From contig NC_091134.1 in assembly GCF_041381155.1 (NCBI RefSeq), positions 41,995,338-42,059,337 on the forward strand: DNA of 64,000 nucleotides. Reading direction: 5' to 3'. The notes under the pieces were generated by a model. That model was not told where the DNA came from, did no database searches, and saw only the letters and a list, made by a program, of their open reading frames with translations. Source of the stretch: Argopecten irradians. Lineage: Eukaryota; Mollusca; Bivalvia; Pectinida; Pectinidae. How positions within the stretch are numbered: the stretch's first letter is position 1; each line of letters opens with the position of its first letter. Made by a program: the position numbers and the translations under genes. Of this stretch, positions 3,962-57,865 are shown in pieces.

Positions 3962-4108
3962 CCATGTTGAACGGTAGTGGATGTAAGGCCGACGTTGGTA
4001 CACCCTGCTCTGATTCTGGTGGCTGCACTACAGGAGAGATCTGTAGCGACGGAGTATGTGCCTGTGACACAGCAACTCATTTCCAAAACGGATCAGACTG
4101 CCAAAACA
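3962..4108 (+). CDS. Exon: EB/EGF-like module 1
   Basis: Phase 1 to 1, 147 nt. Acceptor ...tccacagacag, donor gtaagt at 4109. It encodes seven cysteines, with the EB/EGF-like CxC pair (GVCAC) and a final nGsxC. This is the most 5' recognised exon of the receptor, so the true N-terminus is upstream and not identified. Confidence 0.8.
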
Positions 4109-43100: not shown

Positions 43101-46100
43101 ACAATAGTCCGGGGTTTATAGCTGTGCTATAACTGGTGTGCTATCACTTACATCGACGGTCACAGGAAAAGCCGATCAACGATTTTTTATGATTACTTTT
43201 GAGTGAAATTAATCGTATAATAACTTTTGCTCGAATGTAAATAACTAAAAGAGTGAAAATCGATGTTTCAAATACTCTAATTTATGCTCTAATAGCAGGT
43301 ATCTTCATGTAATTATGAAAGAAAATCCACACAGAAATGAAAGTTTCGGATTTTTTGTCGAGGAGTTCAGCAACGAATAAGCTTTAATTAGATAATATTT
43401 TCCTATTGTCTGTATCTTTAATACATTGTGAATTACAAAGTTTGTGACTGTAAAATGAAATTTTACGTAACAATTTAAGAAATCCTTGATTAAAGTATTG
43501 ACGTACGTACACACCGATGATTGATCATTACAAACATTGTGTTGTGTGTTGTTAACCGAAGAAATTGAGATACATTTATTACAATACCGTAAAACGTTTC
43601 AACATATGGTAGAAAGAATTTATTTTTGATATTATAAAAAGATCTAAATATTGAGATATTAAACAAAACAAACTATTTTTTCAGACCGTGCGGTCGCTTT
43701 CAATTTTAATCGATATACGTGTAGATACTCCGATATAGTTATATAATTAGCCATGCCTTTAGTTTGATGGTTATGTAATACCTGGACCAGGATGTTGTTT
43801 ACCTGTACACAACGCCATTCATCGAACTCACCTGTAATTACCTGGCCGCGGGCAATTTGCTATTCGGTGGACTATATCGGGTATTTGCTATTGTCTTGCT
43901 GTCAATCAGGTTAGGACATCTGTTAATTGGATTGTGATTTGAATTATGGAAACCCCGTACATCTATGCTCTAGGTTTTTTATTGTCACCTCCATTTTTAA
44001 AATGAAGATGTAAAAGCAAATGGAAATAAAATATCCCTGATCATACCTAGGATATATATATGTCGTCCACAGGTAAAACAATAATGGAAGTTGACTTATT
44101 CAGAAACAAAAATGGTTCTAAGAACTATTTCAACTAAAGATTAAACTTTAAACATTATTCCAGTCTAATACTGTAATTACGGAATCGTAGCATATCTATA
44201 TAGCAATCTACCGTAATTTCTAAGGTATTAGTAAAACTTCTAAGCATGTATTTTCAGCGTTTCGAATCTACATGTATAGTCATACAAGAAGGGTTACAGC
44301 ATTACCACACTAATTATATATAAATATACTTATTTTAATATCACTTAGTATATTTTTGAAAAGGTACAAGATATTTATATCTATTTATGATGCCGGTATA
44401 CAAGTAATTTCATTTTTCATTTGAACACTATATGTGGTTACGTTTTGGATTATACGATAAATGTTCATATATCATACTATTAAATTTCGGTATGATATAC
44501 AAAAGGATCGACAATGAATATACTATTTTAAGGATTTAGTATGATTTTGAAATAATGAATTTAAATCTACACTTATACTGTTATTAAGAAACATATATCA
44601 GAAATATCATTGATGTATTTCTGCTTTTTAGTAAACGTTAAAGTTTCAAAGGCAACAATATAGATATACATATTATTTTCGGTATAAGTTCGGTACTGTT
44701 ACTCCAATATCACATAACTGATAACCGTCCAAATTTTATTTTTACTCAAAACTGTGCCGTGTTTGCATCGTTGTGGCAGAAGTTTGAAATAAAAACATGG
44801 ATTCTAGATATATTCATGCTAAATTTTGGGATTTTACTCGTAAAAAGATAGCGTTACATTATACTGTTTTTTATTACACAGAAATTTACATAATATGCTA
44901 TCTAAATCTCAGTCCAGACTGATCCGAACATCATATTGATATCGCTATCGAATTGGACTAATTATCTAATCTAAAGTTAGATATATTCTTGTTTGAATGT
45001 TTGAAATGGTGTAAATGGAATGTTTTGAAACTGAAAATATCTTAATCATAAAGCTAGAATAACCATTTACTCGAAAAACTCAAATTGTAGATCTAACGTA
45101 TACGTGTATGTGCTGTATAGATGTATAGTACTAGGCTTACCGTGTGTAGCCGCGGACTACTGTGACATCACAAAACCACGTGACCGCATAGCTCATTATC
45201 TCTGAACCGTAGTCGACACTACCGTAAATCACGACCAAAACCAACCGATAGCGCTAAAAGCTAGGCGATTCGTTGGGTGGGACTTAATTTTTCATTCATC
45301 CAAAGCAATATCCTGACGTATTATCAAAAAACAAATTTTGGCTGCACAAATCCTTTAAAAGCGTTAGTTTCAACACAGATATTATGTACTGTAAATTATT
45401 GTTTTATGCCTTATGTATGTTTAGATAGAAACTTTCCTGAAGAAATCACGTTATAATTACTGGTTACACTGTAAAAATGTGAAATGAAATTGTAGACCAC
45501 AATTTGACTTGATGGTCTGACCGTATGTACTCATTTCGCTTCACTATATATTTACATATAATGAGTTTTGGCAGTATACTGCTAAATATCATTTTCTGCT
45601 CTTATTTGTATTTTAAAATAAAAACCAATGCATTGAAAGTGTTGTAATTTTCAAAATGTTAGTAACTTTTGTTGACGAATAACATATTTAAAGCTCATTG
45701 ATTTGAGGGTGTGACAAATACGGCATTTACATAACTTTAACTTTTATTTGTGCATTCGGCAGCCTTACAAATAAGAAATGGACGCAAAAATAGGATTTTA
45801 CATCAATTATTTTTTAGAATTTAATCATAAACGACACGTCGGACATTTTGAATAACAAAATGGCTGACAACAATTTTTACCAATTACTGACGTATATGCA
45901 TTAAGTAACCCTAAATATGTGAGATTTGGACAAAAATTAGGATTCTTATCAATAAGTTATCAAAATATTAGAATTTAAACACATTTTGAAAACCAAGATG
46001 ACCAACAAAAATGTGTTCTTCAACGCTTAAAAATAAAAGTATTCATTATTTATTTTTGTAGTATGTTCCATTCTTCCATGCAACTTCATGTATAAAAGAT

Positions 46101-49100
46101 GGCAAACAGACACTCGATATTCTGCCTACGGACCTAGATAGCTACACCTATAATGTGGACATCTTGGACCCTTACACCAACTACACCGTTAGTGTACTGG
46201 CCGTAAATGCAGCAGGGGACGGTCACCCCAACACAACGTACGTCATAACAGATCAGGAAGGTGAGTCCTGTATTAAGTTGTAATTGTACAGGTGATGGTC
46301 ACCCACAAGACGACCTGCGTCATAACGGACCATGAAGGTGAGTCCTTACACAGTTATGATACAAGACCAAGTCAACCCCACATAACTTATTTCATGACAA
46401 TTTAGAAGGTGACACTTGCATTATGTGATGGTGCCAGTCCCCCTTGCCATGCACATCCCATCCCATTACAAAAATGAATCGTTAGGATTTAGCCTTAAGA
46501 TAGAATGGACTAATAAATAACTCATTGAGAGTTCACTCGTCAAACATTATGATAACGGTGCATAACACGTTTTGTCACATAATCCGTCTGATATCCAGTG
46601 ATTTCGCCCTTGTTCTATTTTTGTATATGTCACTAGTGCAATATGACTTGGAAAGTTTTTTATTAGTTGGAAAATTAATTGTTTCGTCATGACGGAAACA
46701 ATAAAATGACATCAATATTTCGAGACGTCGGCGAGATTCTACGCTAAGTCTCACAAAAATAAAAAAAAATAAACTTATTTTACTCGTTTTATACATCTTA
46801 AATAAAATGAACACTTATTTTAGATCCTATATCTATGATCTAGCTCTGTCATAATGTTAATTTTACCTGATATTTTGAGAGACAGATAGATAAAACGTGT
46901 TTAAATCAAATATATCAATATTTACATTTTTACACTTCCAAATATCCCGCTCACACTGACAGCTGCTGTTGAGAGTAGTACAGAAATACGTGTAAGCTGG
47001 ACCATTGGTGGTCCGATGCCTGGACCTACCACCTACACTCTGTATATAATAGCTGCATCTCCAGAAACTGGTCGGACGGAAAACGTCACTGGTGAGATAT
47101 TAGTGTAACAGAGACTCAAGAAGCCTTAAAGGGATACTTAAAGCTGAATAGCTAAACGACTAGAAACGTGTATGTTGTATGTTTACATCACATAGGACAA
47201 AACTACCGGTTTGTATATATAGAGATTGTGCGACTTGAGTTTTGAATTTCTTGAGCTATTTTAATATATAAATGATGCAAAGTTCATGATCTAACGATTT
47301 GAATAGCATATTCGTAATCGGCTCTATGCTCTAGAAATGATACGAATGTGTTATATAAACGGTTATATAACAGTTTTCAGATATGTTTATTTTCTATTCA
47401 TTTGTTGATTCAGGGTTCTCAACTACCACATTCTTGGTGACGAGACTAGAGGAATATAGGACTAACACCTTTAATCTGTCAGCCAGCACAATAAAGGGGA
47501 CAGCAGTATACCAACATGTGCTTCCATCTGCATCGACAAATGCTGCAGGTGATATAAACTTTTTGACCACCCGTGTTGCATTTATCAGGAATGCCATCTC
47601 TCCCGTGTTTGACTGGAGTCTCTCGATTTTTATTGTTTGTCTCACAAAGACGTGTCTTAAGCAACATGATCACGATATTTTCAAGATGCTCTCCGACATT
47701 CTCACGTCAGTATATGTGTAATCTAGCTATATTGGTCTTTTTAATCGTTAATTAACAAAATGTCCTTAAATATCATAAATATTACATAACTAAAATCGAC
47801 ATTGCTTTCTTTGTCAGTGTAATAAGTATAATATCATATGATATTTCACGTCGAAAAATGACGCCGTGTAAAATCCCCCTTTGACCTGGCTTATGTCATC
47901 TCTAGTGGAGGTTGGTAACCCTGCATCGATTATATTTATGGTAACAAGAATACTAAAATATCAAGACGACATTGCACTGAATGTAACGAAGACCTTCCTT
48001 CGTCAAGTTCTACTCATTATCATTTCATACCAGTTCCACTTACCACAGATATTGTGTATTACCTGTGCTCTCAGTACTGATCTCACCGTAGATTTTGTTC
48101 TCCTAATACTAGGTGAACACTCTGCCTTGTTAACTCAGTAAACCTTTTTGAATTAACTGTGTTGAAGGGACCAACACATAATATGACATTTATTGTGACA
48201 TCGAGTTCTATATTTAGTCTGTTCTTATTTATCTATTCAGGTTTTTTTGTCTTCTTTTCTTAACATATTTACTCAAGCTTACAATGCTTTTATTCCGTTT
48301 CCGTTGGTATTTTCGTTCATCCTCATCTTAAACATTATATTAATCCATAAGATAGTCCATTTGAATGTTTCAGCTCCTGGTCCAGTAATGAACTTAACAG
48401 TAGCTCGTCCTGACGGGCCCATCTTCACAACAGTAAGAGTAACCTGGGAACTCCCGTCGATATTGCAGCGAAACAGCGAAATCGTCAAGTTCATGTTATC
48501 ACACAATGCTACAGGAGGAGTAAGCTAGTTATATATGACTATTTCTATTAAACTGAACTTCATATCAGCTTCTCAACGTAATACTAACATGCATGATTGT
48601 TCATAAAAAACAGACTATCGTTATTATTTCAGATTAATAAATCATTAAAATAAATATTAAATATTGTACTTACACAAGGTCAGGGAAGGACGACTTTTAT
48701 TTTGTCATTTTACTATTAGCTGTCTGTTATTGTCAAATTGGATATGATTTAAATAGCTGATTTCTTTTTCAGAACTTAAATTATCAGTATCCCCCCGAAG
48801 AGATAAACGTAAACATCAATATAAAGACAGTAACTCGTAATCTAGAGGTGATACCTGAGAACACTTACTACATCGAGGTAAATAGTAGTAATTTCCGTGA
48901 TACTTAGACAATATATATATTGAGGTAATAGGATTGACCACACACATCGGGACTGTCCATCAGGAATACACACATCGGGAATAATTCCCGGTTAAACGTG
49001 CACGATTGAAGTGGTGCAAGATTGAACATCACCAATGGCGTTAAAATAGCATTGCAAAGGACAAAGACAGCAGTGTTGTATGGAAACAAATATTGCGTTT

Positions 49101-52100
49101 TTCTATTGAAATGTATGTCAGAATGCATACATATGTAACTGAAATTAGTAAATTTGTCTAGATAATTCTACTATGTTTGACGGGTTTTGAGAGATACATG
49201 TATACTAACATAATTACATTAAACTATTTAACTATTCATGTGTTTTGTTGAAGAAATGCACCTTACCGGATTTGTTTAGAGATGGCTGATATAGGCTTTG
49301 TCTGATGCTATTTTTTTGCTTTTTGCATTAAAATTTGTTTACATTAAAGTTATTGAAATTTATAGACATTGTTAGGACCCCGCATCAAGATGCAAGTGTC
49401 CTATCGTAATCAGGTTGTCCTTTTGTCTTTTTATTGCTTTTATATATATACTTTGAGTAATTTAATTTGTTTTTCAGGTGTACGCTATAGGCACTGATTC
49501 GACTCTTCGACAATATATAGGACAAAAAAGCACGAAAATATACATAGCACCTGCTGGAGGTAACATAATGAAGTGACAAGCCAATGCAATTATCCATATC
49601 TCACAAAATATACTACCATATTTTTTTCATTATGATTGTCAAGACCTCGATGAATATTGACACAAGGCACAACATCACAAACTCTAATTCATAATCGTAT
49701 TTATATGTCCTAGAATATCGTGTTTGATTCATTTATATACAGAAAAATGTATCATAATAATAAAAATATATTTATATAATATTTTGCTATCGTAACAATT
49801 GAACTATAAAACATGCCTGACAACATTACAAAAGGACTAAACGCGTACAAGTAAGGATGTAAGATTTTGTCTCGTAGATGAGATGAGGATATGGTCACCA
49901 TATTTGTTCTACCAAATCTTCAAGTCGGCATCTAGCGGTTAATACAAATTTAAAGCAAAACTACGTACTGCATTCCATTTTCAGCTCCTGACCCCCCTGA
50001 AGTACTTACCTGTAAGGCTTCTACTGATACAACCATCACCCTGACCTGGGCGGCTCCACACCAGCGAAATGATGACCCCATACAATACTATGTCGTCAAC
50101 AGTGTTACAACTGGTGTTATGTTTTCCACGACATCTAACATGACAGAGTACACAGTTGACTATGGCCTTCAGCCGGGTAAAATAAATTATGTTACGTATA
50201 GCTTTTTTATTTCTTATTGCATATTGTGAGTATTAATAGCAGGTATTGATTATCACGTCATGTGTTTAAATCATCACGTCATGTGTTTGTGGGTGTAACG
50301 TCATATTTTTCTAAGAAAATGACGTGAGATTCTCTCATAAAATATTGACGTCAAAATCGATACCTTCCCACAAGGAAGATCATTAAGTGCAAATAGTAAT
50401 CTGTGTTGATCACTGAATGACATAGTCAGTTCAGTTAAACCATCATTGTTTTAGGCAATTTTTTAAATGAACAAACGTGGGGTGCCAAATTGAACCAATT
50501 TTGTTAAAGATGCGACCCGATTTTGTTGTTCAAAATATCTGATACTTTGAAATTTGAGTTTCGCGAATTATCCTTAGAATAGCTTATTTACAAGTATTTT
50601 TCCGAAAATGAATCTTTTCATGAAGAAAATGTATTGATGAGTATCATCGTCTATACAGTTTAAATTTAAATGATACTTTAGATACATTTTTGAGATCGAC
50701 ATCCAATTGCGCATGCACATGAGGAATTATCTTGTATAAATAACTTTCAAAAGTATGACACTAGTAAAAAAAAAAAAAAAGAAATGTTGTGTAGCTGAGA
50801 TTGCTGTTTTTGTTTTTACAGCAACAGCATATGTATTCAGTGTGGCGTCTGTCAATGAAGCAGTGAAATCTGTCAACCAACGGACATACAGCTCACAAAT
50901 AGGTTGTACAACCAAAGCTACGAGTAAGTCAGGGTTAGAAAATATATCTAAATTAAAGAATGCATATCGGCTAACGACATAAATGATTCAGCCGGAATTA
51001 TGCTAAAACAAGTGTATGTGTATGGTTATGATTTTTGATATTTTATTTGATACTCAGTCTGGTTCCGTTTTTCTCAAGAAAAAAAAATGACAGTTGATGC
51101 ATCTGCTCATCAGCACATGTAATGGAGAAAAGCTAACACTAATGTGATTAAAGGTAATAATAAATTAAATAAATGTGGCCCCATTTCCTGAACATACACA
51201 AACATATATCCTAACGAATAATACTTTTCGAACCATCATTGGGTACAAAGTTAATATATCGTTCCCATACGGTATCACTTACCCACATGAAACAAATAGC
51301 ATTGTACCAACGCCAAGCACTAAACAACACAAGGCCCTAAACTACAAAAAGTACTATTTGATTACACGATAAAACATTGACAAATAATCGATTAAAAAGT
51401 AAGAATTAAAAATGTAATTGCAAGTATAAATTGCCCGGTTTAAAAAAATGGAATGGAACTGTGTGGTTTTTTGGAGCAAAATTTAAAGGCTCCTTAAAAA
51501 CATGATATAAGAAACTACATATCGATGACTTAAGATGATGTAATAACACCAAACATATGCAAATTTTCTACATAATATATGATAACTGTGGAGATTCGTT
51601 TCGCTGTTTTTCCCTCTTCCACAGTAATATTCAACTACCGCGCGGCATTTAGGACGACGGCGGGAAACATAAGACGACAAGCGTTATGAAAATTAATATT
51701 TTATCTATTTTAATTAATTTTTTCAGAAGATGTTGATGAGTGTAGTATTAATGATAAGTTAGTAATTTTTGCGACTCTTCAAAATTATCGATCTCGTTTT
51801 ACATTCCCATTTTAAAACTTAAAAGCCGTTTCGGGAAGGTAGTGGGCTTTTCAGATGCATCAGCCAGAAATATTTTTTATGGAGGTTGTACACTGAAATA
51901 TTACGGGATATAAAATTTAACAAGACGATATTTATTCACCTTTAATAAGTAATTTTCTCTTCTTATCCAGCGACGGAAAATGAGGCAAGTAGTCTGTTTA
52001 TACCAGGAGTAGTTATGATGATTGCTGCTGTCTTCACTATTTTGTTAGGTGCTGGACTATGGATTGCATTCAGACGTAAGTATATTTTTCTGAATGTCAC

Positions 52101-54223
52101 AGCCACGAAAAAGTAGTATGAAGAAATTACTCTCAGAACATATTATAACTATTTGAGAAGTCCTAACGATGAAAGCAATTTAATTTGTTTTTTTCAGGAA
52201 ACAAAATGTGCTTCAGGTAAGCTAAAGTTACCGATATTTAATCAAGTTATCATATTCTATATTTTTGCATTGTAATTTGTAAAATGATAATGTCTTAACT
52301 AATAAAAAGTATCTTCGATACGTTAGCTAAGGAGACAGCTTGTTCTTTTAGGGTTTTTTTCTCTTGAATTCTTTTTAATTATTGCATAAAAACGATTTTG
52401 TCTTCATGATTGCTGTATGGAAAATGTTAAAAACAATTTAATCAAGTTAATCCATTATGTGGCATACCTCAAAGGACTAAACAGAAGGCTCAGTTGTTCA
52501 TTATGTTTATAAGGTTAACTTTTATGCATGCACATGATGATTTCAGGGGTTAAATGCCAGAAGAGGAAATTTGAAGTAGACTCTGGCGAAACGTACCTTT
52601 AAATAACAATAATAGAAGTTTGTATCACATGAGTATAACAAATAAATCTTTTAATTCTGATCTGTTCCTGATACGTTTTATTTGTTTTGTTGGTTCTTTC
52701 ATGCCTTCAGGAGAAGTGAGAATCCGAAACAAATGGATGTACAGAATGTTCAACTGTCAGAGAGGGGAATCTGCAGTGGTATTTATTAATACGCATTTAG
52801 CAATACCTTCATCCCCGATTTCCATAGGTTGTGATCACAAACGATCTCTACACCCATGAAATATTTTAAAGCAAAGCTGAAGGCTCTTTGTGCGACATCC
52901 GATTAGCAAGTAGTTTGATATCGAATAAAGATGCAATATGTGTTTTGAAATTGAGCGTCGCTCTCTGTTAATTTCAAAAAGCTGTCTGCAGGCCTTTGGT
53001 CGGTCAATTTTTATTCTTCTGGAACTTCTTATGTTTTTGCTCTGACATATACAAGGGGTATAGAGATCGTAAATGATCGTAACCCCTTTGAAATATAGAC
53101 TGCAATACTTCTGTTGTTTATTGTTTGGCCTCCAATAAGCTTCTATAAACAAACACAAGCAAGGTTATTTCTCGTCAGCTTATATTTTCTATCTTTATTC
53201 CACATTCCTATGTTAACTGTCATCAAATGAAGGTTACATTGCATTTTTATCAAATTTTATTTCCTTTATAATTTTCAGATGCAACCCCATCTGGTGACGA
53301 TGAAAGGTAAGTAATCACGTATTTATCTCAATGATATTTTTGATGCTATATTAAACATATTATATGTCTTACGAAATTTTATTTTGTCTTTTCACCCAGA
53401 TCACATTACCAAACAATACGGAGTGATGAGATAGCCAAGCCATCCGTGTATGCTGAAATTGAGGGGTCTGATCAGGGTAAGATATGTAGATATGCACGTT
53501 CTAATAATTGTTCAGACATAATAACAAGCTTAAAGGTCTTGTCGACTAGAATACGATTGAAGTTCTCTTTGACAAAGTAATTTCCCTTTATCAATAAAAT
53601 ATGCGATGGTCTTTCCTTATCATACAATACTTGCATTAAATGTTTCCGCAACGAAGTACTGGAATCAGCTTGTCAGTCCGGCCATAGAAGAGGTTTCTCC
53701 AGACAACTCATTATAAAATACTGAACCGGTTTTAACTAAGTAGTAATATTTGTGACCATGTGTAGATTTGCGTGTATGTTTTCGGGGTTTTTTTAATGTT
53801 GACACTCTACAAGACAAGGTTTGTGTTGAGAAATATTGTCCGGACAACGCTTCCTATACCACTTAAATGAAACTTGGCAGTTATATTGGAGACCATATGT
53901 TGTTCCGATGGTATTTCTATGGTAATCACTTCCCACAGGTTTCAGATTTGCCTGGACAACTCCTCCAACACTACTGAATCAATTTCAATGAAATCGTCAT
54001 CTGAACATGCATGTTTTTGTTTATCAAATTAATGTTCCCATGGTAACCAGATGAATTTTACACTTTAAAATATATCATAATACTGCTTCATGTAATGTAA
54101 TGAGTATTATATATAACATCAAATTTCTTTTAAAACAAACAAGACAACTCTGATAAGAGGAAGCGGGGGTATACGATACCCACTGCAACTAATAACAGTG
54201 TTTTGTCTGAAAATGACAATTAA
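3962..54223 (+). CDS. EB/EGF-like plus FN3 single-pass receptor with SxYxxI tail (partial at 5' end)
   Basis: Thirty-one exons join in one reading frame to at least 1,572 residues; I could not find the start. Using residue 1 for the codon split at 3962, the order is: two EB/EGF-like modules (1-101), FN3 (102-198), five EB-like (199-439), FN3 (440-537), EB-like (538-589), FN3 (590-686), EB-like (687-741), seven FN3 (742-1447), transmembrane exon (1448-1482), cytoplasmic tail (to 1572). Each domain starts and ends in phase 1, the usual arrangement for shuffled extracellular modules. FN3 domains keep the B-strand Trp, the YxFSV F-strand motif and often end in ESGSR. The tail has two SxYxxI motifs. 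By architecture it is a cell-surface adhesion or immune-type receptor. Ligand and partners cannot be read from sequence, and no orthologue name can be given. Confidence is high for the ectodomain and lower for the short tail exons. Confidence 0.85.
5795..5960 (+). repeat. Dispersed repeat, copy 1
   Basis: Contains a block around tatgtttcccgacgtcgtcc that recurs, diverged, in opposite orientation at 51485-51690. Both copies share the following segment through tttggtgttgt or tttggtgttat and catcgatat-like sequence. The apparent coding similarity between the two loci (both YVSRRRP) comes from the shared DNA repeat, not from a gene. Confidence 0.6.
6384..6690 (+). repeat. Degenerate ~140-bp tandem repeat
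   Basis: The block ttaatataaatgacctt followed by ccttcaaggtcac-like sequence occurs near 6390 and 6530 and in weaker form near 6650. The same phrase (atgaccttgacc..caaggtc) appears in the arrays at 20580 and 21290, so this is probably a decayed member of the same pearl/Helentron-like repeat class. Confidence 0.5.
7173..7328 (+). CDS. Exon: EB/EGF-like module 2
   Basis: Phase 1 to 1, 156 nt. Acceptor tgtttcag, donor gtaagt. Six cysteines, including the C-R-C pair, then the signature TFDSNGFDTAGGSC between cysteines 5 and 6. This FDSNG...GGxC signature is shared with several later modules of the gene. Confidence 0.88.
7329..10024. other. Intron, left part
   Basis: AT-rich with no exon seen. 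Contains the palindromic element at 8283-8448 and a short motif (ttcgttacggatgttagg at 9841) that recurs at 13481-13497, 13690 and 13959. Confidence 0.5.
8283..8448. mobile_element. Palindromic MITE-like element
   Basis: The first ~41 bases (from ggagtttgacgttctgtc) are repeated as a near-perfect reverse complement at the right end (to gacagaacgtcaaactcc). The ~85-bp core is AT-rich with its own smaller palindrome. Total ~166 bp, no coding capacity. Flanks agtccaggcac and ggtccaggtgc resemble each other directly, but a clean target duplication was not resolved. Confidence 0.7.
10025..10553 (+). repeat. Foldback left arm
   Basis: Left inverted arm, starting acaaaggacctctttc and fading out after atggtctatttta. 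It pairs with 12479-13006. Confidence 0.8.
12479..13006 (-). repeat. Foldback right arm
   Basis: Right inverted arm, from taaaaatagacc to gaggtcctttgt. A small perfect palindrome (ccgtggtgcaaccacgg, 12451-12467) lies just inside it. Confidence 0.8.
13007..15171. other. Intron, right part
   Basis: No exon recognised. It holds three of the four copies of the ttacggatgtt-type motif. It ends in a good acceptor (gttgtctgttccag) for the first FN3 exon. Confidence 0.5.
15172..15462 (+). CDS. Exon: FN3 domain 1
   Basis: Phase 1 to 1, 291 nt (97 codons). Acceptor tgttccag, donor gtaaga. FN3 features include DQVNRYEFLW, the F-strand YNFSLKSIESGSW and a TITT end. The usual B-strand Trp appears to be replaced by Tyr (LLYFSRP), an atypical substitution compared with the other FN3s of this gene. 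Confidence 0.88.
16411..16500 (+). repeat. 30-bp tandem repeat, three copies
   Basis: Three units at 16411, 16441 and 16471, each beginning ctatttgaacaaccg. The second half of the unit diverges, most in the third copy. Confidence 0.85.
18507..18597. repeat. Small imperfect inverted repeat
   Basis: taactgtccattaagtga at the left matches, inverted, tcactaaatggacagtta at the right with about one mismatch. An inner pair (aactgtccaataagtaac and gttaatggatagtt) is weaker. It could be the fossil of a small hairpin element. Confidence 0.5.
20158..20289 (+). CDS. Exon: EB/EGF-like module 3
   Basis: Phase 1 to 1, 132 nt. Acceptor cgtttcag, donor gtaagt. Six cysteines (PC, SC, NC, TC, VC, TC) with the CVC pair, then DFYDSNGDDIGGTC. 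It is the shortest module of the set and the clearest six-cysteine pattern. Confidence 0.9.
20340..20950. repeat. Degenerate pearl/Helentron-like repeat array A
   Basis: Begins with a GC-rich tract (cctgccgtccacggtgctcc) and continues into two or three decayed units sharing gtgctaccaaattt, ccttcattcaaagcca and acttcttgttaataac-like phrases. Repeats of this style are abundant in bivalves. The copy is too decayed for clear ends. Confidence 0.5.
21170..21480. repeat. Degenerate pearl/Helentron-like repeat array B
   Basis: Starts ctccgttcgtcgtcgtcc and then gtgtaaacttttcatt, the same left-end style as the element near 30840. It continues with about two units sharing gacttcttgtaagtaact, gctgggataaagg / gttggcatgaatgg and atgaccttgacctttactca. 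Confidence 0.55.
21846..21989 (+). CDS. Exon: EB/EGF-like module 4
   Basis: Phase 1 to 1, 144 nt. Acceptor cccttttag, donor gtaagt. Encodes GLGCPTSPSNACKDNAAC followed by NNGVCTCNNGYYDSDG and a final GICAP. Nearly identical in plan to the next two modules, pointing to recent tandem exon duplication. Confidence 0.9.
21990..23506. other. Intron, nothing recognised
   Basis: No exon or defined repeat seen. Ends in acceptor cttcaaaatcag. Confidence 0.5.
23507..23650 (+). CDS. Exon: EB/EGF-like module 5
   Basis: Phase 1 to 1, 144 nt. Donor gtaagt at 23651. Encodes LPCPSSPINACKDNSICTN then GVCNCNTGYYDNDGPS and GICVS. Closest to module 4, both in length and in the GYYDxDGPS stretch. Confidence 0.9.
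23651..24688. other. Intron with a palindromic TGACGTCA site
   Basis: No exon seen. A full CRE-type palindrome tgacgtca lies at 24173-24180, next to a cgcgcgaaa tract. The same palindrome recurs at 39007 and 43094 in repeated DNA, so here it is more likely part of an old repeat than a regulator of this gene. Confidence 0.45.
24689..24835 (+). CDS. Exon: EB/EGF-like module 6
   Basis: Phase 1 to 1, 147 nt. Acceptor ataatcag, donor gtaagt. Encodes VSCPSSPANVCGTNSTCIN then GVCTCNNGFYDSDG and GICVL. Third member of the 4-5-6 group. Confidence 0.9.
25139..25294 (+). CDS. Exon: EB/EGF-like module 7
   Basis: Phase 1 to 1, 156 nt. Acceptor caatttcag, donor gtaagt. Six cysteines with the CRC pair, then TGYFDSNGYSTPDGTC. 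The C5-C6 signature resembles modules 2 and 8 more than 4-6. Confidence 0.9.
25557..25850 (+). CDS. Exon: FN3 domain 2
   Basis: Phase 1 to 1, 294 nt. Acceptor tatttccag, donor gtaagt. FN3 hallmarks: GVTISWTES in strand B, SSYTVVWRQSG in strand C, LSQGTTYVFKVISVESGSR in strands E to F. Confidence 0.93.
26259..26414 (+). CDS. Exon: EB/EGF-like module 8
   Basis: Phase 1 to 1, 156 nt. Acceptor catttaaag, donor gtaagt. Six cysteines with the CRC pair, then TGYYDNNSYSTPGGVC. The exon's 3' end is repeated in decayed form just downstream (26415-26600). Confidence 0.9.
26415..26600 (+). repeat. Decayed tandem copies of exon 8's 3' end and donor
   Basis: tggagtgtgtacagacagtaagtatt at 26470-26495 echoes the exon end and donor (gggtgtgtacagatagtaagtatt, 26400-26422), including the following ccatagtaaccat / ggaaaccat stretch. 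A second, weaker echo (ggtactatgacaatagca) follows at about 26537. No acceptor or open domain remains, so these are not extra exons. Confidence 0.7.
26704..26994 (+). CDS. Exon: FN3 domain 3
   Basis: Phase 1 to 1, 291 nt. Acceptor gtgcttttcag, donor gtaagt. Hallmarks: VTITWNAPSPGVDQVSRYQ, IHWTP in strand C, QMYNFSVKSVEDGSR near the end. Confidence 0.93.
26995..27846. other. Intron, nothing recognised
   Basis: No exon or repeat identified. Ends in acceptor gttatttacag. Confidence 0.5.
27847..28011 (+). CDS. Exon: EB/EGF-like module 9
   Basis: Phase 1 to 1, 165 nt, the longest module. Donor gtatgt. Six cysteines (GC, KC, EC, VC, RC, MC) with the CRC pair, then ASFFDSNGYDNTGGMC. It is the last cysteine module before the run of FN3 domains. 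Confidence 0.9.
28186..28546. mobile_element. MITE copy A, TAA target duplication
   Basis: 361-bp non-coding element in the intron between EB module 9 and FN3 4. The right end tttgcccgattgttcactt is the inverted match of the left end aatgaatagtcgagcaaag, with a few changes. TAA flanks both sides (28183-28185 and 28547-28549). A second copy in the same orientation is at 59948-60290. Terminal inverted repeats with a 3-bp TAA duplication fit a PIF/Harbinger-type MITE. Confidence 0.8.
29064..29357 (+). CDS. Exon: FN3 domain 4
   Basis: Phase 1 to 1, 294 nt. Acceptor catcttacag, donor gtatgc. Hallmarks: VNISWTPPAEYTDQVTRYEV, PGQTYTFSVSSVESGSR. Confidence 0.92.
29529..29798 (+). CDS. Exon: FN3 domain 5
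   Basis: Phase 1 to 1, 270 nt, the shortest single-exon FN3. Acceptor cgttgtag, donor gtaagt. Hallmarks: VIMISWTRPNG in strand B, GQRYNISITTVSGSERSDP near the end. Its 3' half and donor have been copied about six times downstream. Confidence 0.9.
29799..30595 (+). repeat. ~132-bp array of the FN3-5 exon 3' half plus donor, about six copies
   Basis: Copies end at 29931, 30061, 30193, 30330, 30463 and 30595, each with gtgtccaaaa (gtgtccaaga in the fifth) followed by gtaagta, the exon's own end and donor. The unit runs from acagaatctataacc through ctattaccacagtcagtgg to the donor and about 12 intron bases. Most copies share a 5-base deletion relative to the parent exon; the copy ending 30330 keeps the parental length there. 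No copy has the exon's 5' half, and the unit carries an in-frame stop, so they are not extra domains. Confidence 0.88.
30805..31236 (+). mobile_element. Pearl/Helentron-like non-autonomous element
   Basis: Left part is GC-rich (gggtccgccgtccaccgtgc). Then come two tandem ~146-bp units starting gaacttcttctccagttc (30891) and gagcttcttctcaagttc (31037), each with tttggctgaaacttrcat, gacatggtcc and gacaaagtgttgtta. The right end is a small hairpin gcccttgggc followed by ctcttgt, the same ending style as the element at 56531-57650. Such repeats are abundant in bivalve genomes. The Helentron affiliation is inference. Confidence 0.65.
31282..31470 (+). CDS. Exon: FN3 domain 6, first part
   Basis: Phase 1 to 1, 189 nt. 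Acceptor tactactcag, donor gtaaga. Encodes PDPPTSLTCQTTTDKSITL, SWIPPS and IQYYVVNSYSTGD, ending at LQPG. The FN3 is completed by 31676-31777. Exon lengths and break point match FN3 10 (49985-50176 plus 50822-50923). Confidence 0.9.
31676..31777 (+). CDS. Exon: FN3 domain 6, second part
   Basis: Phase 1 to 1, 102 nt. Acceptor cctatttcag, donor gtaagt. Encodes YYAFSVATVNDAVTE and ends VLGCYTKSA. The same length as its paralogue at 50822-50923. Confidence 0.9.
32008..32080 (+). mobile_element. tRNA-like SINE head
   Basis: ggtagttcagtccgtagaac resembles an A box region and ggttcgaatctc at about 32059 a B box, followed by ggtctggcaactac. The acceptor and anticodon arms do not pair properly, so this is a tRNA-derived SINE head rather than a tRNA gene. 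The tail was not delimited. Confidence 0.6.
32313..32485 (+). CDS. Exon: FN3 domain 7, first part
   Basis: Phase 1 in, phase 0 out, 173 nt. Acceptor catttcgtag, donor ggg|gtaagg. Encodes FTLHWTKPSRTNGYLSGYRF and ends near CMSCPG. It must join 46062, the next phase-0 exon, across a 13.6-kb intron. Cysteines late in this half are unusual for an FN3. Confidence 0.85.
32560..32850 (-). repeat. ~150-bp repeat family, inverted copy
   Basis: Two diverged units around aagatggccgacatagaa and aaaatggccgccatagat, each followed by aaaatataatatc-like sequence, then gaatcctagtttttg and gggttactgaacgttag in the first. The same family appears on the other strand at 38560-38720, 42640-42800 and 45770-46010. 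Confidence 0.6.
33037..33147. mobile_element. ~111-bp element with 25-bp inverted ends
   Basis: Left end caaatatttcatgggttac continues to tgtgct; the right end agcacagtaacccatg followed by aaaaatttg is its reverse complement with one mismatch. The ~60-bp core contains gcaatataacat, which recurs in the 22-bp array 430 bp downstream. No coding capacity. Confidence 0.7.
33574..33677 (+). repeat. 22-bp tandem repeat
   Basis: Units beginning cgtgcaatataac at 33574, 33596, 33618 and 33644, plus a degenerate one (ctgtgcaatatgac) at 33663. The first two units are identical (cgtgcaatataacatctcga); later ones diverge. Confidence 0.8.
37125..37270 (+). repeat. Dispersed bivalve-type repeat, copy 1
   Basis: Begins gtaggctctgtttctgtcc, then cctggctgagacacatc, cttgcttagcactaagc and gttgtcagtatgtt. 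The same family occurs at 41217-41365 (via the duplication) and, diverged, at 61023-61145. This phrase is common in bivalve genomes. Confidence 0.7.
38560..38720 (+). repeat. ~150-bp repeat family, copy in duplication copy 1
   Basis: Carries attaggattctacgtcag, a run of ttttgaaaaaaaaaagaag and tttaccaattattaaa. Related to 32560-32850 (inverted) and 45770-46010. Confidence 0.55.
41217..41365 (+). repeat. Dispersed bivalve-type repeat, copy 2
   Basis: Near-identical to 37125-37270, carried by the tandem duplication. Confidence 0.7.
42640..42800 (+). repeat. ~150-bp repeat family, copy in duplication copy 2
   Basis: The counterpart of 38560-38720 in the second copy of the tandem duplication, again with attaggattctacgtcag, a poly-A run and tttaccaattatta. 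Confidence 0.55.
44119..46061. other. 13.6-kb intron, right part
   Basis: No exon. At about 45130-45360 (inverted) lies a diverged relative of 38830-39020 and 42917-43105, sharing aaaggatttgtgcag and tgayrtcacartagtc. At 45770-46010 are units of the aaattaggattctta repeat family. Ends in acceptor tatttttgtag. Confidence 0.5.
45770..46010 (+). repeat. ~150-bp repeat family, diverged units
   Basis: Units contain aaaataggattttacatc, caaaatggctgacaacaa, accaattactgacg, taaccctaaatatg and attaggattcttatcaata. These phrases match, inverted, the repeat at 32560-32850. Confidence 0.6.
46062..46260 (+). CDS. Exon: FN3 domain 7, second part
   Basis: Phase 0 in, phase 1 out, 199 nt. Acceptor tttttgtag, donor gtgagt. 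Encodes LDPYTNYTVSVLAVNAAG, a typical FN3 E-F strand motif. With 32313-32485 the domain is 124 residues, longer than the usual ~95 because of an insertion around the intron site. Confidence 0.88.
46261..46340 (+). repeat. Tandem copy of the FN3-7 exon end and donor
   Basis: About 75 bases after the exon end, 46290-46338 repeats its last ~50 bases and donor in diverged form: caggtgatggtcaccc, cgtcataacgga, ccatgaaggtgagtcctta against caggggacggtcaccc, cgtcataacaga, tcaggaaggtgagtcctg. A second gtgagtcc donor is thereby created. Confidence 0.82.
46574..46845 (+). repeat. Dispersed repeat, copy 1
   Basis: Starts tcacataatccgtctgatat, then ccagtgatttcgcc, atatgacttgga and near the end aaatgaacacttattt. 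The same order of blocks is found at 55559-55930. Confidence 0.65.
46963..47091 (+). CDS. Exon: FN3 domain 8, first part
   Basis: Phase 1 to 1, 129 nt. Acceptor cacactgacag, donor gtgaga. Encodes VESSTEIRVSWTIGGPMPGP and TYTLYIIAASP. The acceptor lies inside sequence that would read LTLTA in frame, and the pyrimidine tract is modest, so the start is a little uncertain. Confidence 0.75.
47414..47548 (+). CDS. Exon: FN3 domain 8, second part
   Basis: Phase 1 to 1, 135 nt. Acceptor gttgattcag, donor gtgata. Encodes FLVTRLEEYRTNTFNLSAST and ends ASTNAA. Together the two exons give an 88-residue FN3. Confidence 0.82.
47549..48373. other. Intron, nothing recognised
   Basis: No repeat or exon recognised. 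Short open frames read through from the preceding exon but have no domain. Confidence 0.5.
48374..48519 (+). CDS. Exon: FN3 domain 9, first part
   Basis: Phase 1 in, phase 0 out, 146 nt. Acceptor gaatgtttcag, donor gtaagc. Encodes APGPVMNLTVARPDGPIF and VRVTWELPS. Confidence 0.88.
48773..48877 (+). CDS. Exon: FN3 domain 9, middle part
   Basis: Phase 0 to 0, 105 nt. Acceptor tttctttttcag, donor gtaaat. Encodes NLNYQYPPEEINVNINIK and ends ENTYYIE, where the FN3 F strand begins. Confidence 0.85.
48878..49477. other. Intron, nothing recognised
   Basis: A short direct repeat of acacacatcggga (about 48940 and 48967) is the only structure noted. Confidence 0.5.
49478..49559 (+). CDS. Exon: FN3 domain 9, last part
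   Basis: Phase 0 in, phase 1 out, 82 nt. Acceptor gtttttcag, donor gtaaca. Encodes VYAIGTDSTLRQYIGQ and ends APAGG. The three exons make a 111-residue FN3, the only one here split in three. Confidence 0.85.
49560..49984. other. Intron, nothing recognised
   Basis: AT-rich intron between FN3 9 and FN3 10, with no repeat or exon noted. Confidence 0.5.
49985..50176 (+). CDS. Exon: FN3 domain 10, first part
   Basis: Phase 1 to 1, 192 nt. Acceptor cattttcag, donor gtaaaa. Encodes PDPPEVLTCKASTDTTITLT then WAAPH and IQYYVVNSVTTGVMFSTTSN, ending LQPG. A clear paralogue of 31282-31470. Confidence 0.9.
50177..50821. other. Intron, nothing recognised
   Basis: Contains a short direct repeat (atcacgtcatgtgtt at about 50253 and 50273) and a poly-A run near 50766. 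No exon. Confidence 0.5.
50822..50923 (+). CDS. Exon: FN3 domain 10, second part
   Basis: Phase 1 to 1, 102 nt. Acceptor gtttttacag, donor gtaagt. Encodes AYVFSVASVNEAVKSVNQRT and ends IGCTTKAT. This is the last extracellular domain before the membrane exon. Confidence 0.9.
51485..51690 (-). repeat. Dispersed repeat, copy 2 (inverted)
   Basis: The minus strand carries cgtcttatgtttcccgccgt followed by cgtcctaaatgccgcgcgg. It matches 5795-5960 in order and content with substantial divergence. Confidence 0.6.
51727..51757 (+). pseudogene. Orphan calcium-binding-EGF exon start
   Basis: A good acceptor (taattttttcag) is followed in phase 1 by codons for DVDECSIND, the classic start of a calcium-binding EGF domain. 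No further cysteine pattern follows, and the only nearby donor (aa|gttagt) would leave the wrong phase for the membrane exon. It reads as the remnant of a lost exon of this gene. The transcript can skip it without changing frame. Confidence 0.5.
51971..52075 (+). CDS. Exon: transmembrane segment
   Basis: Phase 1 to 1, 105 nt. Acceptor cttatccag, donor gtaagt. After a short TENEASS linker comes a ~25-residue hydrophobic stretch (from LFIPGVVMMIAAVFTILL, then GAGLWIAF) ending in Arg, which with the next exon forms a basic stop-transfer. This fixes a type I, single-pass topology with the EB/FN3 part outside. Confidence 0.9.
52198..52216 (+). CDS. Exon: 19-nt juxtamembrane microexon
   Basis: Phase 1 in, phase 2 out. 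Acceptor gtttttttcag, donor gtaagc. Encodes RNKMCF and two bases of an Arg codon. The basic residues and Cys just inside the membrane suit a stop-transfer and possible palmitoylation site (inference). Length and phase fit 52711-52778. Confidence 0.65.
52711..52778 (+). CDS. Exon: cytoplasmic tail, part 2
   Basis: Phase 2 in, phase 1 out, 68 nt. Acceptor catgccttcag, donor gtattt (weak). Encodes RSENPKQMDVQNVQLSERG then ICS, a polar segment without a known motif. The weak donor makes this exon less certain, but it is the only sequence found that links the phases of its neighbours. Confidence 0.6.
53279..53306 (+). CDS. Exon: cytoplasmic tail, part 3
   Basis: Phase 1 in, phase 2 out, 28 nt. 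Acceptor ataattttcag, donor gtaagt. Encodes DATPSGDDER with its neighbours. Another microexon; the strong sites support it. Confidence 0.7.
53400..53476 (+). CDS. Exon: cytoplasmic tail with two SxYxxI motifs
   Basis: Phase 2 in, phase 1 out, 77 nt. Acceptor cttttcacccag, donor gtaaga. Encodes RSHYQTIRSDEIAKPS then VYAEIEGSDQ. SHYQTI and SVYAEI both fit the ITIM consensus (S/I/V/L)xYxx(I/V/L). Counted as YxxI-x10-YxxI they also fall in a loose ITAM spacing. Known families with such motifs recruit SH2 proteins (SHP-type phosphatases or Syk-type kinases) when phosphorylated; that this one does so is inference. Confidence 0.8.
53477..54143. repeat. Intron with a degenerate tandem repeat
   Basis: Three decayed units of roughly 110-145 bp share ccagacaactcattata, ccggacaacgcttcctata and cctggacaactcctccaac (about 53697, 53840 and 53952), the latter two followed by aatgaaact/aatgaaatc. 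This resembles the pearl-like internal repeats elsewhere in the window. Confidence 0.5.
54144..54223 (+). CDS. Exon: terminal cytoplasmic exon with stop
   Basis: Phase 1 in; 80 nt including TAA at 54221-54223. Encodes DNSDKRKRGYTIPTATNN then SVLSENDN. The acceptor (taaaacaaacaag) has a mediocre pyrimidine tract. Its phase fits the preceding exon. A KRKR basic cluster and one more Tyr (GYTIP) are present. Competing downstream terminal exons exist, so this is the most likely but not the only end. Confidence 0.6.
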
Positions 54224-54282: not shown

Positions 54283-54443
54283 TTTACTAATAGAATTGTC
54301 AAGCATAGACACTCTCTTTGATTTTTATTTTTGCGGAATGTATTAGAGAGACTTTATTTTCTTTATTTAACATTATGTTTAGCCACATACAAATTGATAT
54401 GATTTCCTAACCTCAATACCGACAATTTAAGTTGCAGTTGCAG

Positions 54444-54480
54444 ATTACCAAAATGATCCAAGGAATACGAAATAACTAGG
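54444..54480 (+). CDS. Candidate alternative 3' exon
   Basis: After acceptor gttgcagttgcag, phase 1 reads DYQNDPRNTK then a stop, followed by donor gtaagt at 54481. Joined to 53476 it would give a short tail with YQN, which fits the YxN pattern bound by Grb2-type SH2 domains. Only phase and splice signals support it. Confidence 0.3.
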
Positions 54481-54602
54481 GTAAGTTGTGATAACCTGTC
54501 AGTTATCATTATTTCTAACTATATTTAAGAGACTGCGTTTTAAACGTACTGTTTGTTTTTTAATGAATTTCATTACAATATGAACTCCTGCGAACTTGTT
54601 AG

Positions 54603-54626
54603 ATGAACCTCAAAGTAAACATCGTG
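54603..54626 (+). CDS. Candidate 24-nt cassette exon
   Basis: Between tgttag and gtgagt; phase 1 to 1, encoding DEPQSKHR. It could be included before the exon at 55425 without a frame change. Weak acceptor; low confidence. Confidence 0.2.
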
Positions 54627-55002
54627 GTGAGTAGAATTGTAAAATGAAAATGAAAATGAAATGAGTTACAGTTGATTGTTGCTGAACAAACATAGAAACT
54701 TTATAATGAGTCAGTTTCAGCCGTCATGTCAGTGTTGAACGATCACATTACGAAGAACTATGTACGTCACAGAGAAAACGCTATTAGCCATTTTGTTATT
54801 ATGAAATATGCAGATATATTGCATAAACATTTTGTTTCAAATTCAGAAATTAATTATGAACCCTATAGGGAATATATAGACTTTAATATTTGCGTCGTGT
54901 TCGTCCGCCCACCTGTGTCTTATGCAGTCTCTATTCCCTATACTTTTATTGGGTCCTCAGTTGTAAGACGCAGTTTACATACCAAAACCAGATCAGCGTG
55001 AC

Positions 55003-55184
55003 CCTCGTTTCAAGACTATATCTCATATCCTCGTTTCAAGACTATATCTCATATCCTCGTTTCAAGACTATATCTCATATCCTCGTTTCAAGACTATATC
55101 TCATATCCTCGTTTCAAGACTATATCTCATATCCTCGTTTCAAGACTATATCTCATATCCTCGTTTCAAGACTATATCTCATAT
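55003..55184 (+). repeat. 26-bp minisatellite, seven copies
   Basis: Seven virtually identical units cctcgtttcaagactatatc + tcatat, starting at 55003, 55029, 55055, 55081, 55107, 55133 and 55159. Homogeneous, hence recent or actively corrected. Open frames across it arise because the unit lacks stops in some frames. Confidence 0.95.
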
Positions 55185-55424
55185 CGGAAAGCACTGAAAC
55201 TCCATACTTAATATAATATTTGTCCACGAAAAAGACGCAGTATGTACCAACTATTGCTAAATGTTTTGACTGTAATCGTTCATTCAAGAAATACGCTGTT
55301 TTTCATATTCCGAAACCTCTATAGGTTAGCAAAAAGAACTATTTAAGTACAAATAATAAAGTGCAATACCTGCTTATCAGTTGTACAATAAATATATAAT
55401 ATCACTTTAATATATATATTATAG

Positions 55425-55465
55425 GGAAAAGAGGAACGTACAGAAATGTTCATCAACCTTGGTAA
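55425..55465 (+). CDS. Candidate alternative terminal exon
   Basis: After acceptor atatatattatag, phase 1 reads GKRGTYRNVHQPW then TAA at 55463-55465. TYRNV again has a YxN pattern and KRG recalls KRKRG of 54144-54223, hinting at duplicated terminal exons. AATAAA follows at 55869. The AT-rich acceptor is weak. Confidence 0.3.
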
Positions 55466-55558
55466 AGCTAATGACGCTTTAACACGTAGATGATTTACAC
55501 CATCAGGAGTTCTGCGAGTATTAACTCAAATTACCTACATACCCAGAAGAATATCTTT

Positions 55559-55930
55559 CATCACATAATCCGCCTGTTATCCAGTGATTTCGCTCGTGTG
55601 ATATTTTTGAATATGTCATTAGTATAATATGACCTGGAGCGATTTTAATTGGCTGGAAATTCATTGTGATGTCAAGACAGAAACAGTAGGATGACGCCAG
55701 GTGGTGTTAGGATTTAGAGCATGGCGGGACAAAAAGACGGCCTTTACTGGATTTTAGCAATACATTTTGACGAGAGATTATATGATGAAAAGTATCTTAA
55801 AGTTGTGCTCCATTAATGAAACTCATTTCAATTTTTTTTAAGTTTTGCTCACCATGGCTCGCAATAATAATAAAAAACCTTCTTTAACTCGTTTCATAAA
55901 AGTTCATATGAAATGAACACTCATTTAAGA
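55559..55930 (+). repeat. Dispersed repeat, copy 2
   Basis: Shares with 46574-46845 the ordered blocks tcacataatccgcctgttat, ccagtgatttcgctcgtgt, aatatgacctggagcg and, at the right, aaatgaacactcatttaaga. This copy has ~100 bp more in the middle. Confidence 0.65.
55869..55874 (+). promoter_or_regulatory. Candidate polyadenylation signal AATAAA
   Basis: Lies ~400 bases after the candidate terminal exon at 55425-55465, but inside a dispersed repeat, so of doubtful use. Confidence 0.25.
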
Positions 55931-56530
55931 TATTATGTATATATATATGACATTTTCTTATGACTTTACAAATGTGTGCATCTTAGCATAAATCGAAGAA
56001 TATCATCCTCGGTGGAATATGTGACGTAACACTGTTTAAATTGCTGCGGATAAATGCATTTCATTTCATGTTCCCACATTTTCTACATATATACTTGAGT
56101 GATATAAATATTTAATACTGTTGGGCTATTAATGGAGAAAAGTATTAAAGTATTTAAGTTAACATGATTATGATAACATGATACACTGTGTATGCCACGA
56201 TAATATTACCTGTATCATCCATCGATAGCTCCATACATTGAAAATGGTAAAAAGGTATTTATTTGTAATATGTAATGTTGTTTTATTATTTTTCTTTAGT
56301 TTTTTCGGGGATGGGGAAGGAAGGAGTCCATAAACAATAGATATATTATTTATATCATACTAACACAATTCTTTGTTTTTTTCTTCACAAGCTCTATCAA
56401 ATAGATAAAATAAAATTGTTATGTTTACATAACACCTTTTTATAGTTTATGCATTAAGATTGTGTTTAAAGAATTTTTGCTAATATTTGATGATATGTTA
56501 TCAAAATATTTATTTCAAAAATCGGATTAT
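55931..56530. other. Intergenic, nothing recognised
   Basis: AT-rich spacer between the receptor's possible 3' ends and the pearl/Helentron-like element. Confidence 0.5.
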
Positions 56531-57650
56531 TTTTAGCTCGCGTCCGGCTGGTCAGAAGGTCGGATTTCAACAAAATTTGACTGGTAGAATCCTTGTGGGC
56601 TACAAACTGAAAATTGTACAAATAGTGGGGCTGACACCCTAGGGGCCTGAGGGGCGGGTCCAAAAGGGGTCAATTTGGCTATTTCCATATAAATGACTTC
56701 TTCTATGAAAGTAAGCATGGGATAGCACCCATAATGTAATGGTAGCATCCTTATAGGGTGGGGATTCAAAACTGTACAAATGATGGGGCTGACCCTCCGG
56801 GGGCTTGAGGGGCGGGGTCAAAAGTGATCAATTTGACTATTTCCATATAAACGACCTCCTCTCTGCAACTACGCATGGGATTGCACCCATAATGCAATGG
56901 TAGCATCATTATAGGGTAGGGATCAAAATTGTACAAATGATGGGGCTGACCCCCTGGGGGCCTGAAGGGCGGAGTCAAAAGGGGTCAATTTGACTATTTC
57001 CATATAAATGACTTCTCTGAAACTAAGCATGGGATAGTACCCATAATGCAATGGTAGCATCCTTATAGGGTGGGAATTCAAAATTGTGCAAATGATAGGG
57101 CTGACCCTCCGAGGGCCTGAGGGGCGGGGTCAAAAGTGGTCAATTTGACTATTTCCATATAAACGACCTCTTCTCTGCAACTAAACACGGGTTTACGCTC
57201 ATAATGCAATGGTAGCATCATTATAAGGTGGGAATTCAAAATTGTGCAAATGATGGGGCTGACCCCCTGGGGATCTGAAGGGCAGGGGCAAAAGGGGTCA
57301 ATTAGGTTATTTCCATATAAACGACTTCCTCTCTGCAACTAAGCATGGGAGAGCACTCATAATGCAATGGTAGCATTCTTATAGGGTGGGGATTTGAAAT
57401 TTTACAAACGATAGGGCTGACCCCCGGGGCCTAAGACGCGGGGCCAAAAAGGTCAATTAGGCTCATATAAATCACTTCCTTTCTGAACCTATGTATTGGA
57501 TAGCATATTTGTATGGTATCTATAGCACCATTATATGGTTGTGATTCAAAATGAAACAAATTTTGGAGTCACCTTTTCTAATTTTTATAATTGTAAGAGT
57601 CTTTGTGTTAAAAAAAGGTGAGCGATACAGGCTCTCTGGGCCTCTTGTTT
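56531..57650 (+). mobile_element. Pearl/Helentron-like element with ~157-bp internal repeats
   Basis: Left end ttttagctcgcgtccggctg. Right end ggtgagcgatacaggctctc then tgggcctcttgttt, with an aggc...gcct hairpin before the ctcttgttt end. Inside, units beginning gggcctgaggggcggg or close variants start at about 56643, 56801, 56958, 57113, 57270 and 57427 (spacing 155-158), each with atttccatataaatgac and ataatgcaatggtagcat. It is a non-coding element of a class abundant in bivalves, immediately 3' of the sulfotransferase gene. Confidence 0.75.
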
Positions 57651-57749
57651 AAGACAAAATAAAGCTCCGACTTATTACGTGTAATAACTTCTGTCCATAG
57701 ATAATTCGCAGTAATAGCGAGACTATATCGTAGCGAAAATATGAATAAG

Positions 57750-57865
57750 TCAGTCGTAGCGAACAGCAAGCTTCAAATTGAACTCCTTGATTTTCTCTTT
57801 TATGTGTGCATCACACCATTCACTCTGTGCCACCGTAAAGGTGTTCTTCCAGTCTCCTATCACAC
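57750..57865 (-). CDS. SULT exon 5 (terminal)
   Basis: 116 nt, phase 1 in, stop TGA at 57752-57750. Acceptor ctgttgtag. Encodes VIGDWKNTFTVAQSE then WCDAHIKEKIKEFNLKLAVR and YD. Carries the GDWK and dimerisation motifs. Confidence 0.93.

Follow-up and report, generated by a model that had tools for sequence, protein, structure and literature searches.

How does a bivalve surface protein built from EB and FN3 domains come by a tail with paired tyrosine motifs, and does such a tail inhibit or activate? In this work we have examined a gene on the plus strand of a 64,000-nucleotide stretch of the Argopecten irradians genome (contig NC_091134.1, forward-strand positions 41,995,338 to 42,059,337), which we call the window and in whose coordinates positions are given. 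The original prediction for this DNA had noted that a single exon encodes two hexapeptides, SHYQTI and SVYAEI, of the immunoreceptor tyrosine-based inhibitory motif (ITIM) type. With slightly better than even confidence, we take the window protein to be a single-pass EB/FN3 surface receptor whose tail is shared with related genes and leans to inhibition of the ITIM/SHP-2 type.

Translation of exon 53400-53476 gives R-SHYQTI-RSDEIAKP-SVYAEI-EGSDQ, and the peptide bearing the pair is SHYQTIRSDEIAKPSVYAEI. Both motifs (SHYQTI at 53401-53418, SVYAEI at 53443-53460) fit the ITIM consensus (S/I/V/L)xYxx(I/V/L), as had been predicted, and both lie in the predicted cytoplasmic tail downstream of the transmembrane helix. 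Ten residues separate the +3 Ile of the first motif from the second Tyr, and the two tyrosines are 14 residues apart. At least two matches to [SIVL]xYxx[IVL] occurred in 0.14% of 200,000 shuffles of the 77-residue tail. The pattern by itself is weak evidence, because reading the window in all six frames yields 439 single matches, and 25 pairs that fall within 20 residues. What lifts the pair above chance is its conservation in paralogues. When a paralogous exon was used to search the genome (846 Mb, 1508 contigs), the ITIM-pair exon turned up at 13 places, the window included, some of which may be haplotype copies (the peptides at L029 and L030 are identical). Ten of the 13 have an intact frame; all ten carry Tyr at both positions with Ile or Leu at +3, and their second motifs all conform to S[VL]Y[SAT][ED][IL]. 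Ser stands at -2 of the second Tyr in 10/10 of these copies and at -2 of the first in 8/10, and A13, S16 and the acidic +2 residue of the second motif are kept in each of the ten distinct peptides scored. L022, L023 and L026, the remaining three places, have a frame break inside or beyond the first motif. A search with a short artificial peptide gave no match.

The tyrosine tail in the window gene and its relatives

From the transmembrane helix to the stop, the window gene is read as follows, all on the plus strand (+).

51971-52075 (+): transmembrane exon, TENEASSLFIPGVVMMIAAVFTILLGAGLWIAFR, its core without a charged residue; placed by the phase chain, with homologous transmembrane exons in relatives
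52198-52216 (+): short basic juxtamembrane exon (RNKMCF), from its translation and homologous exons in relatives
52711-52778 (+): tail exon with PKQMDVQNVQLSER, carrying V where relatives have Y, from its translation and comparison with relatives
53279-53306 (+): 28-nt tail exon (DATPSGDDE), placed by the phase chain and comparison with relatives
53400-53476 (+): ITIM-pair exon, in frame and fourth after the transmembrane exon, between an acceptor cacccag and a donor gtaaga
54438-54480 (+): last coding exon, VADYQNDPRNTK followed by a stop (TAA at 54473-54475), placed by the phase chain; its counterpart in the nearest relative is likewise 43 nt long (27 identical) and lacks the stop
54593-54620 (+): possible relic of a lost terminal exon, resembling that of the nearest relative (local alignment score 34, reached by 0 of 300 shuffles; best place for one of four paralogue exons)

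Three relatives, which we refer to by contig as the C8, C303-39 kb and C1-38.67 Mb genes, could be spliced in phase from the transmembrane exon to the stop; in the C8 gene the end of the 28-nt exon was set by length, with GT next to it, and in the C1-38.67 Mb gene the stop was reached by reading through a possible donor. Their motifs stand in the order YQ[DN][IV] in the second tail exon, then YQxL-x10-SVYSEI, then a terminal exon with YESL-x8-Y[ED][DE]L. This last pair has the exact spacing of an immunoreceptor tyrosine-based activation motif (ITAM), and all three genes end in that exon, in frame. Exon sizes of 28 and 77 nt recur in the three relatives (the 28 of C8 being the one set by us); the two exons add up to 105 nt, and skipping both would keep the frame and remove the ITIM pair. 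Identity to the window tail is highest in the C1-38.67 Mb gene, which we call the sister (41/69 aligned residues), followed by C8 (29/68) and C303-39 kb (26/68). These comparisons indicate that the cytoplasmic tail is a module common to a family of receptors encoded in this genome.

The terminal exon is found at 15 places; both YxxL are intact at 14 of them, several peptides being identical, and the x8 spacing is the same in 15/15. At L040 the exon contains a TAA, and in the C303-50 kb relative, read exon by exon, the first Tyr of the terminal pair is lost. In the window gene, the in-frame TAA at 54473-54475 precedes the position of the terminal exon, so that this gene has, to judge by its sequence, lost the terminal ITAM. 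The window also differs upstream, where exon 52711 has VQNV and relatives have Tyr (KYQNVQLS, TYQDIQLS, KYQDIQLS). That the ITIM-type pair might itself be read as an ITAM, as was originally suggested, is not borne out: the ITAM pattern YxxL/I-x(6-8)-YxxL/I is absent from the window protein, whose pair has a spacer of 10 and a Y-Y distance of 14, and the position of the family's separate x8 exon lies past the stop. A second candidate relic of that exon, at 54746-54759, was the best place for two of the four paralogue exons and was set aside, since 194/300 and 17/300 shuffles scored as high; the fourth paralogue exon aligned elsewhere, with 279/300 shuffles as high. We also dropped 54143-54223 (RGYTIPTATNNSVLSENDN, then a stop) as last exon, for it has a weak acceptor, whereas the exon at 54438 fits that of the sister in length and phase; it is possible as an alternative gene end.

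Could the conserved tyrosines serve traffic and not signalling? Unphosphorylated, YQTI and YAEI might act as YxxPhi signals for clathrin adaptors, in a scavenger or uptake receptor, and all conserved tail motifs of the family (YQDI, YQHL, YSEI, YESL, YEDL) fit the YxxPhi consensus. Conservation nevertheless reaches beyond Tyr and the +3 residue to A13, S16 and the acidic +2 position, and the constant x8 spacing of the terminal pair is not something that a lone sorting signal needs. We consider sorting an unlikely explanation of the tail.

Ectodomains of the window gene and of its relatives

Splice signals and reading phase give a model of 31 exons from 3962 to 54480, a single frame of 1558 residues with its sole stop in the last exon. 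Phases agree at the junctions throughout, the splice sites are intact and the exons open; one donor was shifted from 48514 to 48519 so that phases meet. The protein has nine EB-type and ten FN3 units, one transmembrane helix and the tail, and the nine and ten of the original prediction thus hold. Upstream of the transmembrane exon, the model consists of the following.

2858-2914 (+): possible first exon, signal-peptide-like, MYIKPVSITLVLVALDQFL; found in a hydrophobic scan, in phase 0 to an acceptor at 3958 (scored), the donor after 2914 and the join being tentative and made by eye
3962-4108 (+): EB-type exon 1, by splice signals and phase; with the possible first exon in place, its start is 3958
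7173-7328 (+): EB-type exon 2, by splice signals and phase
15172-15462 (+): FN3 unit 1, by splice signals and phase
20158-20289, 21846-21989, 23507-23650, 24689-24835, 25139-25294 (+): five EB exons, by phase chain and Pfam EB
25557-25850 (+): FN3, by phase chain and Pfam, as are the next seven lines
26259-26414 (+): EB
26704-26994 (+): FN3
27847-28011 (+): EB
29064-29357 (+): FN3
29529-29798 (+): FN3
31282-31470 and 31676-31777 (+): one FN3 unit in two exons
32313-32485 (+): first half of the following FN3
46062-46260, 46963-47091, 47414-47548, 48374-48519, 48773-48877, 49478-49559, 49985-50176, 50822-50923 (+): FN3 exons, by phase chain and Pfam fn3

When the protein was scored in two halves, Pfam recognized EB (E 1.8e-27, four stretches) and fn3 (E 1e-13, one stretch) in the first and fn3 (E 3.5e-63, seven stretches) in the second; it scored individually only four EB and eight fn3 stretches, the full count coming from the gene model. 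Profiles built from the window's own exons recovered 9/9 EB exons and 7/10 FN3 units on the plus strand of the window. No Ig domain was found by Pfam in the protein or by a local Ig profile on the window plus strand. A receptor protein tyrosine phosphatase (PTP) was considered and not found: the frame stops at the TAA with no PTP domain found by Pfam in the protein, none appeared in eight of the ten listed plus-strand frames of at least 65 residues at 54480-60000, and no entry from the window stands among the 150 of 396 candidates scored in a genome list of PTPs. Two side observations concern the body of the gene. Degenerate repeat pieces of FN3 exon 29529 lie in open frames at 29952-30607, and the piece at 30225 still matches the FN3 profile. 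The 13.6-kb intron 32485-46062 holds two similar stretches about 4.1 kb apart, with repeated open frames (36070-43672), perhaps a duplicated mobile element.

What do the relatives carry outside the membrane? Local profiles were run on 11 stretches from eight related gene regions, and 7/11 gave a match. Ig was found in six of the eight regions (C8, the source of the Ig profile, three on C303 and two on C3) and FN3 in the C1-38.67 Mb region; C303-7.5 kb gave no match, and no EB was detected by these profiles in the 11 stretches. The FN3 profile is insensitive, having missed a membrane-proximal unit of C8 that Pfam calls fn3, and the Pfam Ig scores of two C8 exons are weak, with I-set over the cut-off in one and Ig_3 below it in both. 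Upstream of the sister's tail, on the same strand, there are FN3 exons like those of the window at 31282 and 49985, separated by 18.6 kb (18.7 kb between the window exons). A further exon resembles the EB-type one at 27847; it is classed by likeness, Pfam making no EB call. The C1-38.67 Mb locus thus looks like a second EB/FN3-type gene, on the same contig as the window gene and about 3.4 Mb from it. EB-type exon matches are also dense on both strands near this sister, at C1:38.70-39.00 Mb, and form an array at C1:62655996-62697123 with a regular step of about 921 bases, about 1765 bases in its second part.

The original prediction had pointed to a tail of ITIM or ITAM type on an unusual ectodomain. 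The tail, with motifs conserved in paralogues, and the open, phase-consistent EB/FN3 gene both stand; a special pairing of the two has to be tempered, because Ig-type genes share the tail, which makes it a shared module, and because Draper already joins an EGF-type ectodomain to ITAM and ITIM motifs. One signalling tail may well have been shared between several kinds of receptor. If so, a phosphotyrosine tail would spread as a unit, whatever the receptor recognises.

Predicted signalling and its readers

If the tail works as we favour, ligand binding or clustering would lead a Src-family kinase to phosphorylate SHYQTI and SVYAEI, and probably YQND too. A tandem-SH2 protein, most likely SHP-2, would then dock on the phosphorylated pair through both SH2 domains and damp neighbouring activating receptors, some perhaps ITAM-bearing relatives. 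The lean to inhibition is expected because the window gene has lost the terminal ITAM that relatives keep. YQND, which is kept in the window and the sister, fits the YxN pattern of Grb2, and a branch to ERK through it is possible.

Are the readers of such a tail encoded in this genome? PF00017 (SH2) has 52 matches. Downstream of a tandem SH2 pair at C1:28.48-28.49 Mb, and on its strand, lie PTP exons at 28.4966 and 28.5003 Mb, and the translation of the N-SH2 domain, from two exons joined by us, matches PTPN11 with E 5e-73; by its domain layout, the locus at C1:28.48-28.50 Mb is an SHP-2 gene. For one CSK-like SH2 exon a search gave CSK as the match, and a second CSK-like exon and Src-like ones were judged by reading their translations. 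At C10:25444696-25446909 two CSK-like SH2 exons lie 2 kb apart on one strand, one of the two matched by search; these may be duplicated genes or an unusual double-SH2 CSK. Contig C6 holds more than half of the PTP-domain matches among those listed, which suggests a large tyrosine phosphatase expansion.

The same pieces bear on whether the pair activates, serving as a loose ITAM (YxxI-x10-YxxI) for a tandem-SH2 kinase of the Syk/Shark type. Since relatives bear ITAMs, this genome is likely to encode a kinase that reads them, and the SH2 exon at C14:38.60 Mb has ZAP-70 as its best, weak match. Against this, no clear Syk or Shark gene was identified among the 24 short stretches around SH2 matches that were read, the window pair has a spacer of 10 and Ser at -2, and the family already has a separate ITAM exon with exact spacing. 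We regard activation through this pair as very unlikely.

Several points weigh against inhibition. ITAM tyrosines lie 10-12 residues apart and those of ITIM pairs 20 or more, and the 14 found here falls between the two. SHP-2 prefers I, V or L at -2, to which Ser is a less favourable residue. YxxPhi sorting signals would match the same motifs, and relaxed constraint might just as well explain why the ITAM and the upstream Tyr are gone. The ratio of nonsynonymous to synonymous differences per site (pN/pS) of the window exon, 0.49-0.66 against eight paralogues and below 1 in each case, speaks for the pair; the departure is modest and comes from 27 codons whose synonymous sites are nearly saturated. 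In the sister, the homologue of exon 49985 matches over 41/64 residues, is then disrupted by a short duplication and a stop, and passes into simple sequence (L012, reverse complement, 794-960); it may belong to a pseudogene, be skipped in splicing or reflect an error of the assembly. Thus the sister may not be a working partner, and since this exon is broken in the assembly, pairing of the window gene with it is uncertain.

The broken exon lowers the odds both of an activating/inhibitory pair and of our preferred reading, and raises those of decay, in which the tail has been degenerating since the ITAM was lost, its motifs no longer signal and the protein serves as an adhesion or decoy receptor. 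The TAA ahead of the terminal exon and the possible relic beyond it, the upstream Tyr turned to V, and the broken family copies (3/13) agree with decay. Open frames and undamaged splice sites throughout the 31-exon model, together with a pN/pS below 1 against each of the eight paralogues, argue the other way, and we hold decay to be quite unlikely. Returning to inhibition, a wider scheme can be proposed, in which one five-tyrosine tail (YQxI; YQxL-x10-SVYSEI; YESL-x8-YEDL) is common to Ig and EB/FN3 receptors, a stop codon that cut off the ITAM exon of one EB/FN3 gene first made it and the other, about 3.4 Mb away, an activating/inhibitory pair, and the 105-nt cassette with the ITIM pair can also be spliced out in frame to switch the sign. 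Taken as a whole, this scheme is rather unlikely. Loss of an ITAM by a stop codon would offer a simple route from activation to inhibition outside vertebrates, and one that could be tested in haemocytes.

Known receptors and neighbouring sequence

The closest analogue in working is Draper. According to PMC8092387, Draper/MEGF10/CED-1 proteins resemble the window protein in being single-pass with a cysteine-rich, EGF-type ectodomain; the Draper tail has an ITAM with a Src-type writer, and the ITIM isoform Draper-II is bound by Corkscrew/SHP-2. The window protein differs in its FN3 units, its two ITIM-type motifs and its lack of an ITAM. Pfam found EB and fn3 in it and no EMI domain, and its tail has no NPxY, for which reasons it is not a member of the Draper/MEGF10/CED-1 group.

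Among bivalves, CgIgIT, CgIgIT2 and an ITAM receptor of Crassostrea gigas are described, in a review (PMC11999971), as surface receptors with ITIM/ITAM-type tails acting in haemocytes; CgIgIT2 is an ITAM protein in that review and an inhibitory receptor in a title cited there. The oyster type has an Ig ectodomain, unlike the window protein with its EB and FN3 units, and it is rather the Ig-type paralogues of the window gene, C8 with its Ig domains for one, that look like this kind. The Botryllus fester co-receptors and Hydractinia alr likewise comprise related genes or splice forms with ITIM or hemITAM tails and differ in their Ig/sushi or Ig-like ectodomains and their link to allorecognition (PMC12065747). 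Among mammalian paired receptors (CEACAM, CD300), activating and inhibitory relatives are set apart by their tails, as proposed here, but these receptors have Ig ectodomains and belong to an unrelated lineage. In the literature consulted, the ectodomains of invertebrate ITIM/ITAM receptors are of Ig type or, in Draper, of EMI/EGF type, and a literature search of partial coverage (titles and abstract openings) found no receptor that joins an EB/FN3 ectodomain to an ITIM or ITAM tail. What is new here is that an EB/FN3 ectodomain stands on a tail shared with Ig genes of the same genome, and that one copy has lost the ITAM.

Two features lie beyond the receptor gene. A sulfotransferase gene is represented at 58172-59626 on the minus strand by two exons (Pfam Sulfotransfer_1, E 1.3e-6 and 9.3e-15), and the last kilobase of the window, 63000-64000, is a tandem repeat that translates to NWKDVHKKNVYRDTSYTRIGKMCTRKMCT units.

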